NCBI RefSeq assembly: GCF_013149275.1
Contig: NZ_JABGNA010000001.1
Coordinates: 496,001 to 560,000 of the forward strand
DNA from: Mucilaginibacter sp. SG564
GTDB taxonomy: Bacteria > Bacteroidota > Bacteroidia > Sphingobacteriales > Sphingobacteriaceae
DNA length: 64,000 nt
Reading direction: 5' to 3'
The notes beneath the pieces were generated by a model. It ran no database searches and was not told the origin of the DNA. It saw nothing but the letters and a program-made list of their open reading frames with translations. The position numbers were made by a program, and so were the translations under genes. Positions 20,382 through 63,396 of this stretch are shown here, in pieces; position 1 is the first letter of the stretch; each line of letters starts with the position of its first letter.

Positions 20382-20468
20382 AACGCCCTGGTATACTCTC
20401 TATACAGATCTTTTACAGGTTGACCGAGGTGATTTTTATGCCTTCTATGTATTCTGCAGGGTATTTCG

Positions 20469-20729
20469 TATATTTGTATATATAACGGCCTTGCTTTCTG
20501 TTTAACAGAAAGCAAGGCCGTTCTGTTAAAGGATAAAACCGACCAAAAATAGAGACTGTTTTAGATTTACTTATTTGAACATCAATTATCAAATACTTTT
20601 TAAAGCTTTCAGAACCCGCTGAAAATTTGTTAAAATGGCATTAAAACTCCATTAAACTGAATATTTATCGGCTGTTTTTAGTCGTTTTTTGAACAGAAAA
20701 GTGTTAAAATTATGGGTTTAAAAAGTTTT
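20469..20729 (+). repeat. Hairpin-led intergenic element, copy A
   Basis: The element begins with TATATTTG (20469-20476), then exactly seven bases, then a perfect 19-base-pair hairpin (20484-20502 / 20504-20522). An AT-rich conserved part follows, with shared blocks CTTATTTGA, CAATTAT, AATACTTTTTAAAGC, TTTGTTAAAA, GTGTTAAAAT (20701) and GGTTTAAAAAGTTTT (to 20729). Copy B at 61050-61319 has the same order and near-identical spacing. The hairpin may also terminate the transglutaminase gene. AATACTTTTTAAAGC and the closing block are near-perfect inverted repeats of each other. The function is unknown: an untranslated RNA, a mobile repeat or a regulatory block are all possible. Confidence 0.65.
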
Positions 20730-20829: not shown

Positions 20830-22065
20830 ATGAAATTTCAACAGTTGTTAGAAGAGGTAAAACATTATGTCATATCATATTTTGATGTGCATGATGATCC
20901 CGAACTTGCATACCATAATCTTAAACATACTAAAGACGTAGTTGCTGCTGCTACTCAGATAGCCAACCACTACCAGCTATCTGACGAAGATTTTTTTATA
21001 GTGCTTTCCGCAGCATGGTTTCATGATACCGGCTACTTTGTTGATAAAAGCAATCATGAAGTGAAAAGTACCGAAAATGCAACCCATTTTCTGAAACAAC
21101 AAAAGGTAGATAACGCGGTAATTGATAAGGTAAACGCCTGTATCATGGCTACCGAAATGCCCCAAAAACCAACCAATCTGTCGGAAGAAATTTTGTGCGA
21201 TGCCGATCTGTTTCACCTGGGTACCGATGATTTTAGAGAAAAAAGCAAGCTGATGCGCAAGGAGTTGGAGGCCTGCAGGCACATCGAAATTAATAAAGAC
21301 ACCTGGCGCGAGGGTAATATTAAACTGTTAGAGTCGCACCATTACTTTACCGATTATTGCCAACTGCTGTTAAATGACCAGAAGCAAAAGAACCTTGAAA
21401 AATTAAAGGATAAACAAAGCGAAGTGGAAGAGAAATCCGAAAAAAAGGAAAAGGCGGAAGGCCGAAATGTGACTGAAACAGATCATGTTGAAGCTGCTCT
21501 TGTTAAAGAAGAGGAACATCATGAAAAAAAACATAAAAGTGATAAGCCGGAAAGGGGTATCGAAACCATGTTTCGTATCAGTTCAGCAAATCATCAGCGT
21601 TTGAGCGATATGGCCGACAATAAGGCCCATATCATGATCACAGTGAATTCGATCATCTTATCTGCCATTATCAGTTTGGTATTGCGCAAGTTGGATGAGC
21701 ATTCCAACCTGCTGATTCCTACTTTTATGCTGCTCACAGTAAGTTTAACCACCATGATATTCTCTATCCTGTCCACACGGCCTTCAATTCCGCCGGGTAT
21801 TTTTTCGCCCGATGATATTGAAAAAAAGACGGTCAATCTACTTTTCTTTGGTAATTTTTACCGTATGTCGTTAAACGATTACAGCGATGGTATGGTAAAA
21901 ATGATGGACGATAAGGATTTCTTGTACGGTAGTCTTATCCGCGATAATTATTCGCAGGGTGTTGTATTGGGCAAAAAATATAGGTTATTGCGGGTTTCTT
22001 ATAATGTATTCATGTTCGGTCTTATTATTTCGGTATTGGCGTTCCTGATCTCATCACTGATATAA
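20830..22065 (+). CDS. HD phosphohydrolase fused to Pycsar-type membrane effector
   Basis: A 411-residue protein. Residues ~1-185 form an HD domain with a full metal set: His33 (with His29 nearby), His65-Asp66 in 'WFHDTGY', and Asp124 in 'LCDADLFHLG'. A highly charged Lys/Glu linker spans ~190-245. Residues ~248-411 match DUF5706, the PycTM effector family: 'ANHQRLSDMADNKAHIMITV' and three membrane segments at ~265-287, ~295-317 and ~389-411. PycTM proteins in Pycsar defence respond to cCMP or cUMP and damage the membrane. No cyclase is near. It is the first gene of a four-gene operon with ppk1 (20-base gap), so control of nucleotide or phosphate signalling is as likely as defence. Confidence 0.82.
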   Translation: MKFQQLLEEVKHYVISYFDVHDDPELAYHNLKHTKDVVAAATQIANHYQLSDEDFFIVLSAAWFHDTGYFVDKSNHEVKSTENATHFLKQQKVDNAVIDKVNACIMATEMPQKPTNLSEEILCDADLFHLGTDDFREKSKLMRKELEACRHIEINKDTWREGNIKLLESHHYFTDYCQLLLNDQKQKNLEKLKDKQSEVEEKSEKKEKAEGRNVTETDHVEAALVKEEEHHEKKHKSDKPERGIETMFRISSANHQRLSDMADNKAHIMITVNSIILSAIISLVLRKLDEHSNLLIPTFMLLTVSLTTMIFSILSTRPSIPPGIFSPDDIEKKTVNLLFFGNFYRMSLNDYSDGMVKMMDDKDFLYGSLIRDNYSQGVVLGKKYRLLRVSYNVFMFGLIISVLAFLISSLI

Positions 22066-38056: not shown

Positions 38057-41000
38057 ATGTTTCAGAAATTTATAGAAAGACCGGTATTATCAACTGTTAT
38101 CTCCATATTATTGGTGATAGTTGGTATACTTGGTTTAACAAAACTGCCCTTAGAGCGGTTTCCAAATATCGCGCCTCCGTCGGTATTGGTATCTGCTGTG
38201 TATCCGGGCGCTAATGCCGAGACTATTTTACGTTCCGTGACTCCGTCATTGGAAGAGGCCATCAATGGTGTGGAAAACATGACCTACATGACCTCCACTG
38301 CCAGTAATGACGGTACACTGGGTATCACCGTTTACTTCCAGCAAGGCACCAACCCGGATCAGGCTGCTGTAAACGTTCAAAACCGTGTTTCACAAGCAAC
38401 CAGTCAATTACCTGCCGAGGTTGTACAATATGGTATAACTACTACCAAACAACAAAATAGCTTTATTGGAGCTATGGGTATTTACTCAGAAGATCCAAAA
38501 AAATACGACGCGACCTTTGTAAACAACTATGCACAGATCAATATTATTCCTGAGATCAAACGTATCCCGGGTGTAGGTTCTGCCAGTGTATTTGGTGGTA
38601 TTAAGGATTACTCCATGCGTGTTTGGTTAAATCCAACTCAATTGGCTACATATAAAATTACACCTGCCGAAGTAATGGCCGCTATACAGGACAAAAACCT
38701 GGAGGCTGCACCTGGTAGACTTGGTGAGCGTAGCAATGAAGCATTTGAATATGTAATTAAATATAAAGGTAAACTTACCACACCAGAGGAATATCAAAAT
38801 ATTGCTATCCGTGCAAATGCAGATGGTTCCGTACTGCGTTTAAAAGATGTAGCACGTGTTGAACTGGGCGCTTATAGCTATAGCAGTGTTAACCGCTTAA
38901 ACGGATACGAAGGTATTACTATTGGTATTATTCAATTATCAGGCTCAAATGCCAACGAGATCCAGATTGCCATTGATAAGCTGATGGTGAAATTATCAAA
39001 AGATTTCCCGGCAGGTATCAAATTCAATCAGTTTTATCGTACCAAGACCGACCTTGATGAGTCAATTGATCAGGTTGAGCATACATTGGTAGAGGCCTTT
39101 ATATTGGTATTTATCGTAGTATTTATATTCTTGCAAGATTTTAGGTCAACATTGATCCCGGCCATAGCGGTTCCGGTGGCCATTATTGGTACCTTCTTCT
39201 TCATGAACCTGTTTGGCTTCTCTGTTAACTTGTTAACCTTGTTCGCTCTGGTGTTGGCCATCGGTATTGTGGTGGATGACGCGATTGTGGTGGTGGAAGC
39301 GGTTCATGCCAAAATGGAGGATAATCCAAAACTTACCCCAAAAGAGGCAACTACCGAGGCTATGCACGAAATTAGCGGTGCCATTATATCAATTACATTG
39401 GTTATGGCGGCGGTGTTTTTACCGGTTAGTTTCATGACAGGTTCAACAGGTATATTTTACCGGCAGTTTGCGTTAACAATGTCTATAGCCATCATTATTT
39501 CGGCTGTTAACGCTTTAACTTTAAGCCCGGCCCTGGCTGCTTTATTCTTAAAGAATAAACATACTGCCGATGGTCATGAAGCGCCTAAAAAAGGTTTTGT
39601 CGAAAAATTTTACGCTGGTTTTAACGGTGGGTTCAATTATATGACCACCAGATATGTTGGAGCCTTAAAGATCCTTATTCGCAATAAATGGATCAGTATG
39701 GCTGGCCTTGCATTAATAGTTGTTGCTACAGTTTACCTGGTAAACAGAACAAAAACAGGCTTTATTCCAACAGAAGACCAGGGCTTCGTGGCTATCGCGG
39801 TTTCAACACCATCCGGAACTTCATTAGCCAATACCAGTAAAATAATCAATCAAGCCGAAAAAGAATTGAGAGCTTTACCATCAGCAAGATTTGTGATGGC
39901 ATTGTCTGGCTTTAACTTTTTAACGCTATCAAACAGCCCATCAGCAGGTCAGATCTTCCTGTTGTTAAAACCTAATAAAGAAAGAGGGGCCGTTAAGAAT
40001 ATTGATGATATACAAAATATAATAAGAGGCAAATTAGCCGGTATACCAAGTGGTACGTTCTTCGTGTTCAGCTTTCCAACAGTTCCCGGATTTAGTAACG
40101 TAGAAGCTTTGGACGTTCAGCTTCAGGACAGAACCAACGGCAGACTGGATAAATTTAGCGGCGTAGCCAATAACTTTATCGGAAAGCTGATGGCAAAACC
40201 GGCAGTAGCTTATGCCTTTACTTCTTATAAAGCCAATTACCCTCAATTACAATTAGAGGTTAATGACGAAAAGGCTAATCAATTAGGGGTAAATGTCAGA
40301 GACATTTTATCAACCATGCAGGCTTACTTCGGTACTGCGCAAGCATCAGACTTTAACCGCTTTGGTAAATACTATCGTGTGATAGTTCAAGCTGATATTG
40401 CCGACAGAACCGACCCTGCATCTATTGACCGCGTATTTGTTAAAAACAAAGCAGGAGAAACTGTGCCTATTAACACTTTGGTTAAACTAACCCGTGTTTA
40501 CGGTTCAGAAACTGCTTCACGTTATAACCTGTTTAACTCTATTGAGGTTCAAGCCATTCCTAAACCAGGCTACAGCTCTGGTGATGCTATTAAGGCTATC
40601 GAGGAAACAGCTAAAGAAGAATTGCCAAATGGTTTTGCTTATGAGTTCTCGGGCCAAACACGTGAGGAGATCTCTTCAGGCGGTCAATCGGCTGTGATAT
40701 TTATGCTTTGTTTGATATTTGTATACTTCTTACTATCAGCACAGTATGAAAGTTACATCCTGCCACTGGCAGTAATACTTTCCATCCCTACAGGTATATT
40801 CGGTGTGTTTGTGGTATTAGGCTTAACCGGTATCGAAAATAATATCTATGTACAGGTAGCCTTGATCATGCTCATCGGTTTGTTGGCCAAGAACGCCATC
40901 CTTATTGTGGAGTATGCGGTACAGCGACGAAGAGCAGGTCATACTTTGGTTGAATCGGCTATAGAAGCAGCCAGATTAAGGATAAGACCGATCATCATGA

Positions 41001-44054: not shown

Positions 44055-44542
44055 AATTTAAAGTTTAGTATATGGTTTATTATTTGGTTTGCAAAAGCAC
44101 ATAAAAATCCTGTTCGGAGTTTGCAGGATCTCCGTTCGGTATTTTTATCAAAAAATTATTATTATTCGGTATATATTGGTAAACCAAATCTATATGATGT
44201 GTATGTTACAATAAGCTGTTGTTGAGGAATTTATTTACGAAAACGTTTGCGTTTTAGCTATAAAAATATCGAATTTTTAGGGTTACATGGCTAAGCATAG
44301 TGTATCTTAAAGCTCCGGGTACATACAATACTTAGTGTAATTGTCTATAAAAAAAATATTATTATATAATGCTGAAAAATACATAAAGAATAAACCTTTG
44401 CGTTTTTTTGAATAAACCGGCTGTTTAAAAAAAATGGCGCTCTATCAGATCATTAATTTTACATATTGCAAATAATTACCCTGAAATAGCCATATTTTTG
44501 CTATCATAGCGGTACCCTTGAGAGATTTGAACTTTTTATTGA
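44055..44542. other. Divergent intergenic region
   Basis: A 488-base AT-rich gap between the lyase (minus) and GH20 (plus) genes. A minus-strand TAGATTTG box lies at 44185-44192 and a plus-strand TATTTTTG box at 44493-44500; both are candidate -7 elements, but the partner TTG is off the usual spacing (16 and 24 bases). No gene or RNA structure was recognised. Confidence 0.45.
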
Positions 44543-58517: not shown

Positions 58518-60920
58518 TCACTTCACCACCCATTCATGTATCCCCGATGAATTATCTGCCGGTAACTGAATTTCCATTCTTAAAGCCGTAGTATTTACTG
58601 GTTCAAAGCTTACGGTATTAAAACTGTCTTTACTGATATTGTACGGAATAGTGTTTTTTACCGGCACCCATTGACCGTCTTTCAGGTACAGTATTTTGTA
58701 CGATGCCGGGATACGGCAGCCGCCCCAGGGGCCATCATCAAACCAGTATACCTTTGATTCGCTGACGGTATGTGCGGTATCAAAATTATATTGTACGTAT
58801 TCGCTGGTGTTTTTAGCCGGCCACCAATGCAGGTAAGGGTAGTTGGTATCCTTAGAGTCAGCAGGTTCATATTGATCTTTTATAGATGCAAACATCCTGG
58901 TATTTTTTAACGACGATGTTACCTTGCTGGTACTTGCTATGGTAGGTGCAGGTTTTGGCCTTGCAGCCGAAGCTTCGTACGGGATCCATACGGTCATTTC
59001 GCTTGGTCCGCGGTTTGCCCAGGCATAATAGGGAATGGCTTTTACCTGTTGGTTGGCCTCGATTAATCGATTGCTGTTTAACTGGCGTTTTGTGCTTTTA
59101 CCCACGGTATTTATCACATCAACGCCGTTGAGCAGATCGGCATAATAATTTGCCTCGGCAATGGCGTTTTTATCAACCATAATGTTTTGAACCAGGCTGT
59201 CTTTATTATCGGGGCCTTCAAGGCAATACACAACTGGTCCGCGTTCAAAAGCAAAACGATTGATATCATCCTTTACCAATGGGTTGGCCAATACTTTTTC
59301 GGTTTTCATGGGTAACAGCAAGGAAACCTGGTCGCCCTTTTTCCAGGTACGTTTTAATACCGCGTATCCTTTTTCGGTAACAAATGATTGCGGTTTACCG
59401 TTGATGGATAACATCACGGGTAACACTTTTTTATCCATAAAAGTATATAGATCACCCGGCACTGGTTGCTGTTTGGCCCACCCTGGTATACGTATCCTTA
59501 AGGTAAATTCGGTGTTTTTTTCCGGATTAACCGTGATATCAACTTTGCCTTTCCAGGGGTAATCAGTTGTTTGAACGATGTTCACATTGCCTGATGCCAG
59601 TTTGATGTTACTGGTATTGCCCATAAACAGATTTACGTACAGGTCATTTTTGTTTTTGGCATAAACATACCCCGGCAACGATGGCAAAAAACGGGTCATG
59701 TTGCTGATGCAGCAGGCGCAGCTGATCCAGGCACTGCGTTCGTTTTGCGACATAGATGCCAGTGGATTAGGGTAAAAGAAACGATCGCCACTGAGCGAAA
59801 CACCCGAGAGCAAACCATTGTAAAGTGTTCTTTCCAGTACATCAATATATTTGGAATCGCCGTGCAGCAAAAACATCCGGTTGTTCCAGTACACATTACC
59901 AATAGCCGCGCAGGTTTCGGCATAAGCCGACATGTTTGGCAACTGGTACGCGTCGCCAAAAGCCTCGCCGTTACCGGTTGCACCTATACCGCCTGTGATG
60001 TATAGTTTTTTGTTGACCACATCGCCCCATATATCATCAATAGCGGCTAAATATTTGGTGTCGCCCGTTAAGGCTGCAATATCTGCCATACCGGTATACA
60101 TATAAGCTGCCCTTACCGCATGCCCTTCGGCCTCATGTTGGTCGACTACTTTTTTGTTGGCCTGGTTGTAAGCGTCGCCCTTGGGGCCGCGCACATCCAG
60201 GAAAAATTTGGCCAGATCAAGGTATTGCCTGTTGCCGGTGACCCGGTACATTTTTGATAGCCCAATTTCTACTATCTGGTGACCGGGATATTCTTCCAGC
60301 TTGCCCGGTCCAAAAACCCTAACCAGCAGATCGGCATTTTTTATAGCGATATTAAGCAATGTACGTTTACCGGTAGCCTGGTAATGGGCAACGGCAGCTT
60401 CGTACAAGTGGCCGCAATCATACAATTCGTGGCTTAGTACTTCCTCTTGTTCCCAGCGTTTGGCGCCTATCCATTCATGCGGTTTTTGGGCATGTACACT
60501 ACGGAAGGTATACAGGTAACCATCGGGTTCCTGTGCGGCACCGATAATGCTGATCAGTGTATCGATATATTTATCAAGTTGAGGGTTAGCTTTGTTTTGC
60601 ATGGAGTAGGAGGCTCCTTCGATAGCCTTATATACATCGGTATCATCAAACGGGAATTCGCTTAGTTTATCGCCATCAAGTTTTTTGGCGGCCCTTAAAA
60701 AATTATCCATGCGGCCGTTTGCCTTGCATTGCGCCAAAACGTAGGGGATGGTCACATTGGCGTTAACCTCCATTTTGGGCTGCCAGAAATGATCATTCAC
60801 GTGAACACTGGTGAAGACCACAGGCTGTATAGGATAATCTTTTTGCTGTGAAAAGGCCATATTTGTAAATGCTATTATGAATAGCGGTAGCATGCAGACT
60901 GTTTTTCTTTTCTTGATCAT
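58518..60920 (-). CDS. GH127 beta-L-arabinofuranosidase
   Basis: An 800-residue secreted enzyme (signal ending NMAFSQ). The GH127/DUF1680 barrel includes 'WIGAKRWEQEEVLSHELYDC' and 'VDQHEAEGHAVRAAYMYTGM'. The unusual Cys-nucleophile site is complete: Glu335 and Cys337 in 'SAYAETCAAIGN', and Cys401, Cys403, Cys404 in 'SCACCISNMTRF', matching Glu338, Cys340, Cys415, Cys417 and Cys418 of Bifidobacterium HypBA1. The last ~120 residues are an extra beta-sandwich, F5/8-type. HypBA1 removes arabinose from hydroxyproline-linked beta-arabinosides of plant extensin. The divergent neighbours degrade hydroxyproline, which supports that substrate. Confidence 0.9.
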   Translation of the reverse strand: MIKKRKTVCMLPLFIIAFTNMAFSQQKDYPIQPVVFTSVHVNDHFWQPKMEVNANVTIPYVLAQCKANGRMDNFLRAAKKLDGDKLSEFPFDDTDVYKAIEGASYSMQNKANPQLDKYIDTLISIIGAAQEPDGYLYTFRSVHAQKPHEWIGAKRWEQEEVLSHELYDCGHLYEAAVAHYQATGKRTLLNIAIKNADLLVRVFGPGKLEEYPGHQIVEIGLSKMYRVTGNRQYLDLAKFFLDVRGPKGDAYNQANKKVVDQHEAEGHAVRAAYMYTGMADIAALTGDTKYLAAIDDIWGDVVNKKLYITGGIGATGNGEAFGDAYQLPNMSAYAETCAAIGNVYWNNRMFLLHGDSKYIDVLERTLYNGLLSGVSLSGDRFFYPNPLASMSQNERSAWISCACCISNMTRFLPSLPGYVYAKNKNDLYVNLFMGNTSNIKLASGNVNIVQTTDYPWKGKVDITVNPEKNTEFTLRIRIPGWAKQQPVPGDLYTFMDKKVLPVMLSINGKPQSFVTEKGYAVLKRTWKKGDQVSLLLPMKTEKVLANPLVKDDINRFAFERGPVVYCLEGPDNKDSLVQNIMVDKNAIAEANYYADLLNGVDVINTVGKSTKRQLNSNRLIEANQQVKAIPYYAWANRGPSEMTVWIPYEASAARPKPAPTIASTSKVTSSLKNTRMFASIKDQYEPADSKDTNYPYLHWWPAKNTSEYVQYNFDTAHTVSESKVYWFDDGPWGGCRIPASYKILYLKDGQWVPVKNTIPYNISKDSFNTVSFEPVNTTALRMEIQLPADNSSGIHEWVVK

Positions 60921-61049
60921 ACGTTTGGTTTTCCGGATATGTAAAGTAAAACTACAGGTATGTACAGAAATGTGATGGATGATAATTTGCAGGGTGATAA
61001 CCGGATTTTACCCCATTTTGCTGTCAGTATATGCCTCAAATTTATTTAG

Positions 61050-61319
61050 TATATTTGTGTAGGTAACAGCCCGCTTGTATGTAAAAAATACGAGCGGGCT
61101 GTTTTGGTTAAACGCAGAAAGGAACAAAGATAGTCTGTTTTTTATTTAGTTATTTGATAGTCAATTATTTAATACTTTTTTAAGCCTTAAAAAAGCTTAT
61201 CAAAATGGGGTTTAAATTTGTTAAAAAGTGTTAAAATGAGGCTGTTTTGAATATTTTATAGCCGCTTTTACCTCCGTTTTGACTAAAAAAGTGTTAAAAT
61301 TCAAGGTTTAAAAAGTTTT
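61050..61319 (+). repeat. Hairpin-led intergenic element, copy B
   Basis: This copy has TATATTTG (61050-61057), seven bases, then a 16-pair hairpin (61065-61080 / 61088-61103, one G-U) and the same AT-rich tail as copy A, including GTGTTAAAAT (61291) and GGTTTAAAAAGTTTT (to 61319). The hairpin sequence differs from copy A, yet the stem is kept. There is no upstream plus-strand gene here, so the hairpin is not a terminator for a known gene. The rest of the 527-base divergent gap holds a TAAGTTTG box (61424-61431), the candidate -7 of the hydroxyproline operon, and nothing else I could recognise. Confidence 0.65.
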
Positions 61320-61447
61320 TTGCACCATGAATTATCACGATTTGAGTGCCGAAAACAGTTTGCCTGGATAAAATATGGTTAGTACCAGTTAAATTATTGA
61401 GTTATTCATATGGGCTGCGAAACTAAGTTTGTAAAAAACATTTAGCA

Positions 61448-62383
61448 ATGATAGCATTTGAATGGAAAGGCGTATTACCCGCCGTAACTACCAAGTTTAC
61501 CAATCATGATGAATTGGACTTTGAAGCTTTTAATATCAACTTAAATGCCCAACTGGAAGCGGGTGTTGATGGTTTTATACTGGGCGGGTCTTTAGGTGAA
61601 GCAAGCGTACTGAGCGATCAGGAAAAATACGATCTGCTTGCTCATACCGCAGCCTTTGTGGAGGGAAAAGTGCCTGTTATACTCAATATTGCGGAGCAAA
61701 CAACCAAGGCTGCCGTTATCTGCGCGCAAAAAGCATTTGACAATGGAGCTGATGGCTTAATGTTATTACCGCCCATGCGTTATGGCAGCGATGAGCGCGA
61801 AACCATCGCTTATATCAGTACTATTGCCAAAAGCACGCCGCTACCCATCATGATCTACAATAACCCGGTTGATTATAAGGTAGAGATCACCCTGGATATG
61901 TTTGAACAACTTGCAGCCTATGATAATATACAGGCGGTAAAGGAATCAACCCGCAATGTATCTAACGTAACACGCATGATCAATCGCTTTGGCGACAGGT
62001 TTAAAATATTAACCGGTGTTGATCCCCTGGCTATGGAAAGCCTGGTGATGGGTGCAGACGGCTGGGTTGCTGGCCTGGTTGATGCTTTCCCTAAAGAAAC
62101 TGTAGCCATATACCGCCTGGTTAAGGCTAAACGATACGATGAGGCACTGGCTATATACCGTTGGTTTTTACCGGTATTGGAGCTGGATATCCATCCCAAA
62201 TTGGTACAATACATTAAACTGGCAGAAGTGGCAACCGGTATTGGTACCGAAAATGTACGTGCTCCGCGTTTGCCATTAGTTGGTGCTGAGCGTGAAAAAG
62301 TTCAAAAGATCATTAACGATGCGCTTGCTGTTCGTCCGTTGTTACCTGTAGGAAGTTGGGGTAAATTAAACGTGGTTGTATAA
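61448..62383 (+). CDS. DapA-family lyase, likely pyrroline-4-hydroxy-2-carboxylate deaminase
   Basis: A 311-residue TIM barrel of the dihydrodipicolinate synthase family. The Schiff-base Lys165 lies in 'IQAVKESTRN' and the catalytic Tyr137 in 'PIMIYNNPVDY'; 'GGSLGEASVLSDQEK' is the phosphate-like loop, with Gly-Ser in place of the Thr-Thr usual in true DapA. Its place before a 4-hydroxyproline epimerase and a D-amino-acid dehydrogenase indicates the third step of hydroxyproline breakdown, turning 1-pyrroline-4-hydroxy-2-carboxylate into 2-oxoglutarate semialdehyde with loss of ammonia. It is the first gene of the operon, 11 bases before the next. Confidence 0.85.
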   Translation: MIAFEWKGVLPAVTTKFTNHDELDFEAFNINLNAQLEAGVDGFILGGSLGEASVLSDQEKYDLLAHTAAFVEGKVPVILNIAEQTTKAAVICAQKAFDNGADGLMLLPPMRYGSDERETIAYISTIAKSTPLPIMIYNNPVDYKVEITLDMFEQLAAYDNIQAVKESTRNVSNVTRMINRFGDRFKILTGVDPLAMESLVMGADGWVAGLVDAFPKETVAIYRLVKAKRYDEALAIYRWFLPVLELDIHPKLVQYIKLAEVATGIGTENVRAPRLPLVGAEREKVQKIINDALAVRPLLPVGSWGKLNVVV

Positions 62384-62394
62384 CAATAAAACAC

Positions 62395-63396
62395 ATGGCC
62401 AGTAAAACTTTTTTTTGCATAGATGCGCATACCTGCGGTAACCCTGTAAGGTTGGTGGCCGGTGGCGGCCCAACATTAAAGGGCGATAACATGAGTCAAA
62501 AGCGCCAGCACTTTTTGAAGGAGTATGATTGGATCAGGACGGGACTAATGTTTGAGCCCCGGGGCCATGATATGATGTCGGGTAGTATCCTGTATCCGCC
62601 TCATGACCCGGCAAATGATGTGGCTGTTTTGTTTATCGAAACCAGTGGTTGTTTACCCATGTGTGGTCATGGAACCATCGGAACTATTACCATTGCTGTG
62701 GAAGAGGGACTGATACAACCTAAAGTGCCGGGTATCATCCGCATGGAAGCCCCCGCAGGCCTGGTATTGATCGAATATAAACAGGAAGGTAAAAAAGTTA
62801 CTTCGGTAAAGCTTAAAAACGTAGCGGCTTATCTGGCAGCAACAGATCTGCAGGTGGAATGCCCGGACCTGGGCATGCTCACCATTGATGTATCCTACGG
62901 TGGAAATTACTATGCCATAGTTGATCCACAGCCCAATTTTGGAGGGATTGAGCATTATACCGCCGGGCAACTGATTGCCTGGAGCCAGGTATTACGCAAA
63001 CGTATCAACGAAAAATATGAGTTCGTGCATCCACAGGACCCTACCATCAATACCTGTACACATATCCTCTGGGCCGGGGCTACATTATCCGCCGATGCCA
63101 CAGCCCGGAACGCGGTATTTTATGGCGATAAGGCTATAGATAGGTCGCCTTGCGGCACAGGTACTTCAGCCCGTATGGCGCAATGGCATGCCAAGGGAAA
63201 GCTGCAGGTTGGTGAGCCTTTTATCCATGAAAGTATTATTGGTAGTAAATTTACAGGCAGGGTAGAAGAAGTGGTAAAGATCAATGATATAGATGCCATT
63301 ATTCCAAGTGTGGAAGGCTGGGCAAAGGTGTATGGCTACAATACCATTAAAATAGACGATGACGATCCTTACGCTCATGGTTTCCAGGTGATATAA
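62395..63396 (+). CDS. 4-hydroxyproline 2-epimerase (proline racemase family)
   Basis: A 333-residue cytoplasmic enzyme. Both catalytic cysteines are present: Cys90 in 'LPMCGHGTIGT' and Cys253 in 'DRSPCGTGTSARM'. This separates it from the related trans-3-hydroxyproline dehydratases, which have Thr at the second site. 'CIDAHTCGNPVRLVAGGGP' opens the protein as usual. It converts trans-4-hydroxy-L-proline to cis-4-hydroxy-D-proline, the first step of the pathway formed with its neighbours. Proline racemase activity is a less likely alternative, given the context. Confidence 0.92.
   Translation: MASKTFFCIDAHTCGNPVRLVAGGGPTLKGDNMSQKRQHFLKEYDWIRTGLMFEPRGHDMMSGSILYPPHDPANDVAVLFIETSGCLPMCGHGTIGTITIAVEEGLIQPKVPGIIRMEAPAGLVLIEYKQEGKKVTSVKLKNVAAYLAATDLQVECPDLGMLTIDVSYGGNYYAIVDPQPNFGGIEHYTAGQLIAWSQVLRKRINEKYEFVHPQDPTINTCTHILWAGATLSADATARNAVFYGDKAIDRSPCGTGTSARMAQWHAKGKLQVGEPFIHESIIGSKFTGRVEEVVKINDIDAIIPSVEGWAKVYGYNTIKIDDDDPYAHGFQVI

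Follow-up and report, generated by a model that had tools for sequence, protein, structure and literature searches.

A dispersed ~270-bp element of Mucilaginibacter pairs a covarying 5' hairpin with a helically phased, putatively curved DNA body

Two segments of the Mucilaginibacter sp. SG564 genome belong to a dispersed family of elements, ~270 bp in length, in which the 5' hairpin is under RNA-type selection and the body is under a DNA-helix-type constraint. The window, that is, the whole stretch of 64,000 bases analyzed here, comprises bases 496001-560000 of contig 1 in a genome of 6.83 Mb. Our best explanation, to which we assign a probability of roughly 0.45, is a dispersed DNA-bending element that would act as a supercoil-apex or chromosome-domain site and that carries a promoter-like start and an RNA hairpin.

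A first-pass annotation had described the two segments as copies of one element, each with a box, a spacer, a hairpin and closing blocks. Inspection of the sequence confirmed all of these parts at their places, as well as the two downstream genes starting at 20830 and 61448. The features are as follows (R1 is a covariance model described below).

20468-20729, + strand: copy A, whole conserved unit (contig 1, 516468-516729; R1 score 225.3 bits, E = 2.0e-37 in the genome)
61049-61319, + strand: copy B, whole conserved unit (contig 1, 557049-557319; R1 score 224.4 bits, E = 3.0e-37)
20469-20476, + strand: -7-like box of copy A, TATATTTG
61050-61057, + strand: -7-like box of copy B, TATATTTG, read in the sequence
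20484-20522, + strand: 5' hairpin of copy A, perfect 19-nt arms, 100% complementary, covarying in the family
61065-61103, + strand: 5' hairpin of copy B, 16-nt arms, 94% complementary
20523-20729, no strand: predicted curved body of copy A with in-phase A/T-tracts (best 213-bp window at 20561, end-to-end/contour ratio 0.56)
61104-61319, no strand: predicted curved body of copy B (best 213-bp window at 61161, ratio 0.19)
20830-22065, + strand: gene downstream of copy A, C-terminal PycTM domain; outside the element, marker for occupied and empty sites
61448-62383, + strand: gene downstream of copy B, dihydrodipicolinate synthetase (DHDPS) family; outside the element, marker for occupied and empty sites

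In both copies exactly 7 bases separate the box from the hairpin, and the closing blocks GTGTTAAAAT and GGTTTAAAAAGTTTT align between them, with the ends at 20729 and 61319. The 7-base spacer emphasized in the annotation is typical of the family without being invariant, the range being 5 to 10 bases (by eye, in an 18-copy alignment). Conservation across the family starts near -33 and stops at a T-tract. A search of the window with R1 returned nothing else better than E 0.03, bar the opposite-strand shadows of A and B, and Rfam gave no matches in the window, with only sub-gathering-score matches for copy A.

We also noted the nature of the neighboring genes. The C-terminal PycTM domain encoded downstream of copy A is a Pycsar effector domain, and the N-terminal half of the same protein resembles, by eye, an HD phosphohydrolase. 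A relative of this gene is present in 19 of the 21 same-genus genomes searched, hence a defence role is not obvious. Copy B is flanked by a GH127 arabinofuranosidase gene and by a pair of DHDPS-family and proline-racemase-family genes (58518-63396 of the window), presumably a neighborhood for hydroxyproline use.

The element had been taken for a two-copy one. An initial DNA search of the SG564 genome, with 18 of 148 candidates scored, gave 18 related places and one shadow row; R1, built from 18 copies of this genome, then recovered at least 106 distinct sites (140 rows minus opposite-strand shadows and fragments). The annotation had also suggested looking in relatives for further copies with compensating changes, and there are many in three congeners: R1 found at least 110 copies in genome G066 (113 rows), at least 124 in sp. 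OK268 (G144) and at least 116 in M. lappiensis ATCC BAA-1855 (G070). All four counts are lower bounds because 150 candidates were scored per genome. A second model, R2, was made from 20 distant copies of genomes G042, G085 and sp. SP1R1 (G103), in which it finds 25, 11 and 7 copies, respectively. Among 149 same-genus genomes, R2 at E 1e-4 matched 13 and R1 at E 0.01 matched 16; among 399 genomes of the bacterial family, R1 at E 1e-4 matched eight, every one of them Mucilaginibacter. These genus and family searches used stricter filters, with which weak matches are lost. Most congeners are therefore without the family, and its role is not essential in the genus. Plasmids searched with copy B gave no match, and viral contigs searched with one exact pattern gave none.

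The elements are oriented and near-constant in length, and their identity within a genome is low (mean 0.63 in SG564, 0.73 in OK268). Scores in SG564 range from 249 to 56 bits, with 200 bits or more reached by 49 of its 106 sites versus 103 of 124 in OK268. Decayed copies are thus present in SG564, as if constraint on the element were relaxed in this species. For alignment we used a sample of 69 SG564 and 68 OK268 copies, hereafter near copies, from 60 fetched stretches per genome.

The 5' hairpin has a GC-rich stem of ~16 pairs, with a mean RNA folding energy of -28.4 kcal/mol in near copies and -27.7 kcal/mol in distant copies. The orthologues of copy A keep a GGCCTTG-type stem with changed letters, and those of copy B in G066, M. 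lappiensis and OK268 likewise have changed stems. That pairing is kept while the stem sequence changes, as proposed from A and B alone, proved to be general: compensating double changes occur at 10 of the 16 stem pairs in OK268, double-change cells number 106 versus 25.9 in shuffles (125 versus 28.8 in SG564), and none of 500 shuffles matched the double-change cell number of the structure. At fixed inner stem columns, G-U was found more often than A-C (47:20, P = 0.0013, and 33:18, P = 0.049). Such a bias is not favored by a DNA cruciform, which points to + strand RNA. We consider selection on the hairpin as + strand RNA to be moderately supported by these counts, and only moderately because the alignments were fitted to the model.

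Beyond the hairpin, pair counts gave no double changes in any helix, although many such pairs barely vary and are thus little informative. Structured RNA over the full length was rejected, since RNAalifold and pair counts placed covariation in the 5' hairpin alone. We also considered long-range pairing of ACTTTTTAAA with the 3' end; the sequences are complementary and showed no covariation by eye. From the alignments, the body outside the hairpin does not look like an RNA body. The suggestion of a structured RNA hence finds support in the 5' hairpin and is not supported for the element as a whole, the body of which is constrained in DNA helical phase.

This body, ~205 bp with ~18 tracts per element by our count, has its A/T-tracts in phase at 10.5-10.6 bp. 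All 68 OK268 copies and 64 of 65 SG564 copies exceeded the 99th percentile of AT-rich controls (527 AT-rich windows from the same loci), and combined AAA/TTT power at 10.5 bp was 17.1 in OK268 and 14.0 in SG564 versus 1.6 in controls. A- and T-tracts share one phase in OK268 (coherence 0.97 and 0.95), and T-tracts taken alone give no peak at 10.5 bp (power 3.0 and 2.8). Conservation and G+C content both oscillate at 10.5 bp along the alignment. AA/TT power reached 15.3 in the 20 distant copies, compared to 29.5 and 22.5 in near copies and 1.5-2.5 in flanks; a search for the curvature phase carrying on into the flanks gave weak, inconsistent signals alone.

Internal distances vary little overall. 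The palindrome and ACTTTTTAAA are 21 bp apart in nearly all copies (66/68 in OK268, 58/59 in SG564), and the total from ACTTTTTAAA to TGTTAAAATT is 115-117 bp in most (67/68 and 61/65, respectively). Between these marks, TTTGTTAAAA lies either 31 bp (26/68) or 41 bp (42/68) from ACTTTTTAAA in OK268, a difference of roughly one turn of the helix for which the downstream spacing compensates, giving 31 + 85/86 or 41 + 74/75 bp in most copies. Over both genomes we counted 72 long-short, 55 short-long, one short-short and no long-long forms. Six of 29 scorable orthologous pairs had switched form; five of them keep the total within 2 bp and one shifts by 10 bp. As read from these alignments, selection on the helical phase of the body is well supported.

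Such phasing is as expected for intrinsically curved DNA. A wedge model predicted end-to-end/contour ratios of 0.47 in OK268 and 0.53 in SG564, versus 0.90 in AT-rich controls and 0.87 in block-shuffled elements, and a summed local bend of 270 and 264 degrees versus 147 (AT-rich) and 166 (block-shuffled). In the same model, copy B is the most curved and copy A the second most curved place in the window; the last 213 bp of copy A have moderate predicted curvature (ratio 0.67). The next most curved places, ~38921-39193 and 44141-44393 (ratio 0.61-0.68), have no family-model match. Intrinsic curvature would account for orthologues keeping equal length while their letters change.

We noted that the hairpin best keeps the identity of its locus (0.81 between orthologues versus 0.66 between paralogues) and the 3' part less so (0.87 versus 0.83). 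The hairpin thus tracks the locus and the body scarcely does, with forms switching between SG564 and OK268 orthologues, as would happen if copies swapped bodies or if a strict consensus had brought the bodies to saturation.

The body also holds near-invariant GTTAAAA-type repeats at 10-11 bp steps, and a site resembling WATCAANNNNTTR, the E. coli IHF consensus. This site is present in 64 of 135 near copies against an expectation of 3.2, almost always at the same place, and in 9 of 20 distant copies against 0.3. A family-wide palindrome, TTTGA...TCAA, lies ~100-119 bp into the element and overlaps the WATCAANNNNTTR site in about half of the copies. Repeats and site, together with the spread of copies over the chromosome, could suit a loading platform for one dedicated protein (a condensin loader, a segregation or a nucleoid protein) whose target is the phased GTTAAAA repeats, with curvature as a by-product of repeats on one face. 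We regard this as improbable: T-tracts lie in phase with A-tracts, and weakly conserved stretches keep the oscillation between G+C and A+T, both of which fit curvature better than a fixed motif.

We then examined genomic context. Copies are nearly always intergenic. With a simple ORF caller, no frame of at least 80 aa overlaps 127 of the 137 copies by more than 40 bases; among the other ten, eight overlap frames of 84-116 aa and two overlap frames of 188 and 243 aa. For the 98 copies whose right-hand neighbor is on the + strand, the median distance to the start of that gene is 101.5 or 113 bp, depending on the genome; for the 39 with a convergent neighbor, the median distance to its end is 14 or 6.5 bp. 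A general role as leader of the downstream gene was rejected because 39 of the 137 right-hand genes are convergent, mostly ending within 30 bp. The earlier view of the element as independent of its neighbors is supported. Two further candidates were set aside. Right neighbors are not more conserved in amino-acid identity than other genes, which speaks against a special class of neighbor, and the longest complete ATG frame in 135 copies has a median of 17 aa and a maximum of 55, which speaks against an encoded peptide.

The -7-like box before the hairpin turned out to be a family trait, with TAnnTTT[GA] present in 120 of 135 near copies and in all 20 distant copies. A peak of TT lies at -22/-21, upstream of GTAT, followed by G at -20 in 43% of copies; the spacing of this TTG is that of the Bacteroidota -33/-7 promoter consensus. 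Taken with the strong stem covariation, the excess of G-U over A-C and the extent of conservation from near -33 to a T-tract, the box and the TT(G) peak at 20-bp spacing could mark multi-copy sRNA genes, each with a promoter and a ~255-nt transcript with a stable 5' hairpin, acting in trans like Bacteroides FopS. We find this account unlikely, if worth keeping in view. The TTG at the -33 position is present in just 35 of 135 near copies and one of 20 distant copies, and is absent from A and B. A simple consensus scan called no terminator in the region of B and a single one in A, which lies within the body, so that neither copy has one at its 3' end. The 8 nt after the hairpin contain a mean of 3.1 T. 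Moreover, no double changes occur beyond the hairpin, and the body is under a 10.5-bp DNA phase constraint with one-turn steps.

Inheritance of the copies was followed in the aligned sample. At least 32 of 69 SG564 copies have an OK268 copy with both flanks matching and equal orientation, and for 13 of 20 distant copies (G042, G085, SP1R1) the genes on both sides match those of a fetched SG564 or OK268 copy. Sites A and B, examined with R1 and R2 beside their marker genes, are each occupied in OK268, G066 and M. lappiensis and empty in the other 16 of 19 loci; the 19 loci exclude the SG564 genome, and in remoter genomes the neighborhood may also differ. These occupied and empty sites mean that gains or losses have happened, yet many copies are old and fixed. 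Across the 32 orthologous pairs, element identity is 0.83 versus 0.71 for upstream DNA (higher in 29 of 32) and is slightly above the 0.79 of downstream DNA (21 of 32).

Nearest-paralogue identity has a median of 0.76 in SG564 and 0.83 in OK268, and exceeds 0.9 in 2 of 69 and 0 of 68 copies. The only SG564 pair above 0.9 is an inverted one in fetched stretch L095 (4097-4365 and 15009-15277), ~10.6 kb apart and 92% identical, a recent duplication or conversion. A scan of 135 copies for target-site duplication, at k 3 to 9, gave match frequencies close to one permuted control (6.7% versus 5.2% at k 3, with longer k not above control). Terminal inverted repeats were likewise not found in near copies, where the left end scored 7.33 against the reverse complement of the right end and shuffled sequences scored 7.41.

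These results bear on the proposal that the element is a mobile repeat. Relatives lack the element at sites A and B, yet many copies occupy fixed, inherited places with neither target duplication nor terminal inverted repeats. An ancient MITE- or REP-like mobile element that multiplied in the ancestor of four species, most of its copies now being fixed and their spacing due to local exclusion, would fit the lineage-restricted abundance (106-124 copies in four species versus 25, 11 and 7 in G042, G085 and SP1R1) and the pattern of three occupied and 16 empty loci at each site. We judge it rather unlikely, given the low nearest-paralogue medians, the distant copies that lie between the same genes as a near copy, and the helical-phase constraint.

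Copies lie roughly every 45,000 bases, avoid one another and are non-randomly spaced. Gaps below 10 kb, four to five per genome, make up 3.9% in G066, 4.9% in SG564, 4.6% in OK268 and 4.4% in M. lappiensis, versus an expected 13-16% (0/2000, P = 0.0075, 0/3000 and P = 0.0013, respectively). The fullest 10-kb gap bin is 40-50 kb in OK268, G066 and M. lappiensis, and the median gap in SG564 is 47 kb. Gaps of 30-60 kb account for 48.5% in G066 versus 24.4% expected, and for 49.5% in M. lappiensis versus 27.4% (0/3000). The null is uniform placement, not restricted to intergenic DNA, and the four tests are not independent since the genomes share orthologous copies. The coefficient of variation of gaps is below random in SG564 (P = 0.001), but not in G066 (0.31) or OK268 (0.68), where a handful of very long gaps raises it. 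Strictly periodic spacing was rejected; gaps are semi-regular with long exceptions. We also noted a rare breach of the spacing rule in OK268, where two copies in opposite orientation (C8:191185 and C8:191903) lie 0.7 kb apart. An sRNA family does not need semi-regular spacing, and in the case of an old mobile repeat it is not obvious how a hard exclusion zone by itself could make 40-50 kb the commonest gap.

We return to the dispersed DNA-bending element. The body would serve as an intrinsic bend at which the tip of a supercoiled loop is pinned, by analogy with a synthetic curved DNA of 250 bp (curved250), which pins plectonemes in vitro (PMC6301789). An IHF/HU-type protein might bind at the conserved WATCAANNNNTTR-like site, and the copies could anchor the chromosome or mark its domains at semi-regular positions; this supercoil-apex or chromosome-domain role is inferred. 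RNA polymerase would start at the edge of the bend, and the RNA would begin with the hairpin. In the least certain step, transcription might hold polymerase and supercoils at the apex, or the hairpin might end, protect or cap the RNA. Bending, protein binding, supercoil pinning and transcription of the element are all predictions.

Bacterial chromosomes form supercoiled loops, and it is an open question what determines where these lie. In its boldest form, which we think possible but doubtful, the proposal is that more than 100 selected bare-DNA bending modules, mostly 40-50 kb apart and each provided with a promoter-like start and an RNA hairpin where the bend begins, fix supercoil apices and split the chromosome into loops. 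If true, chromosome domains would be encoded in the sequence, and the curvature of the DNA would be what marks their boundaries. To our knowledge, no conserved and dispersed natural element is built for plectoneme pinning. More than 100 homologous, positioned test sites per genome (M. lappiensis, sp. OK268) and naturally empty sites in other species make the pinning idea directly testable.

Our search of the open-access literature brought up nothing that we recognized as this repeat family. Among known dispersed intergenic repeats, some BIMEs contain IHF sites, and Correia/NEMIS and ERIC, which carry promoters or IHF sites, have terminal inverted repeats or are palindromic. Unlike Correia/NEMIS and ERIC, the element has neither terminal inverted repeats nor target duplication, and by these sequence tests we do not class it as a MITE. 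A search of PMC2267715, on stem-loop families, for Bacteroidetes terms found none. FopS sRNAs of Bacteroides resemble the element as a paralogous, dispersed family; they have Bacteroidota promoters and structured RNA, of which the -7-like box and the 5' hairpin of the element are partial counterparts. The passages of PMC11697453 describe 14 members with mRNA-pairing seeds and do not mention a helically phased body. We do not class the element as a FopS-type sRNA family because the consensus scan gave neither A nor B a 3' terminator.

Closer likenesses are found among curved and palindromic DNA. The element shares with curved250 (PMC6301789) a length of ~250 bp and strong intrinsic curvature, predicted by computation in our case, and differs in being natural, repeated, evolutionarily maintained and equipped with a -7-like box and a hairpin. 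It shares with the A-tract clusters and curvature periodicity of prokaryotic genomes the 10-11 bp A-tract phase, the curvature and a proposed part in nucleoid folding; in the passages of PMC3940949 those clusters are a genome-wide periodic signal, whereas the element is discrete, homologous and oriented. With the REP/BIME of enterobacteria (PMC2817692) it has in common more than 100 intergenic copies, a covarying palindrome and a proposed binding of chromosome proteins. A possible IHF-type site is a further likeness, to the IHF-containing BIMEs. Unlike REP/BIME, it has a single hairpin at one end, a near-constant ~270 bp with ~205 bp of phased A/T-tracts, and semi-regular spacing in place of close alternating clusters. 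We therefore file it as a new family among dispersed intergenic elements, one that, by analogy, would work most like a cross of REP/BIME and A-tract curvature.
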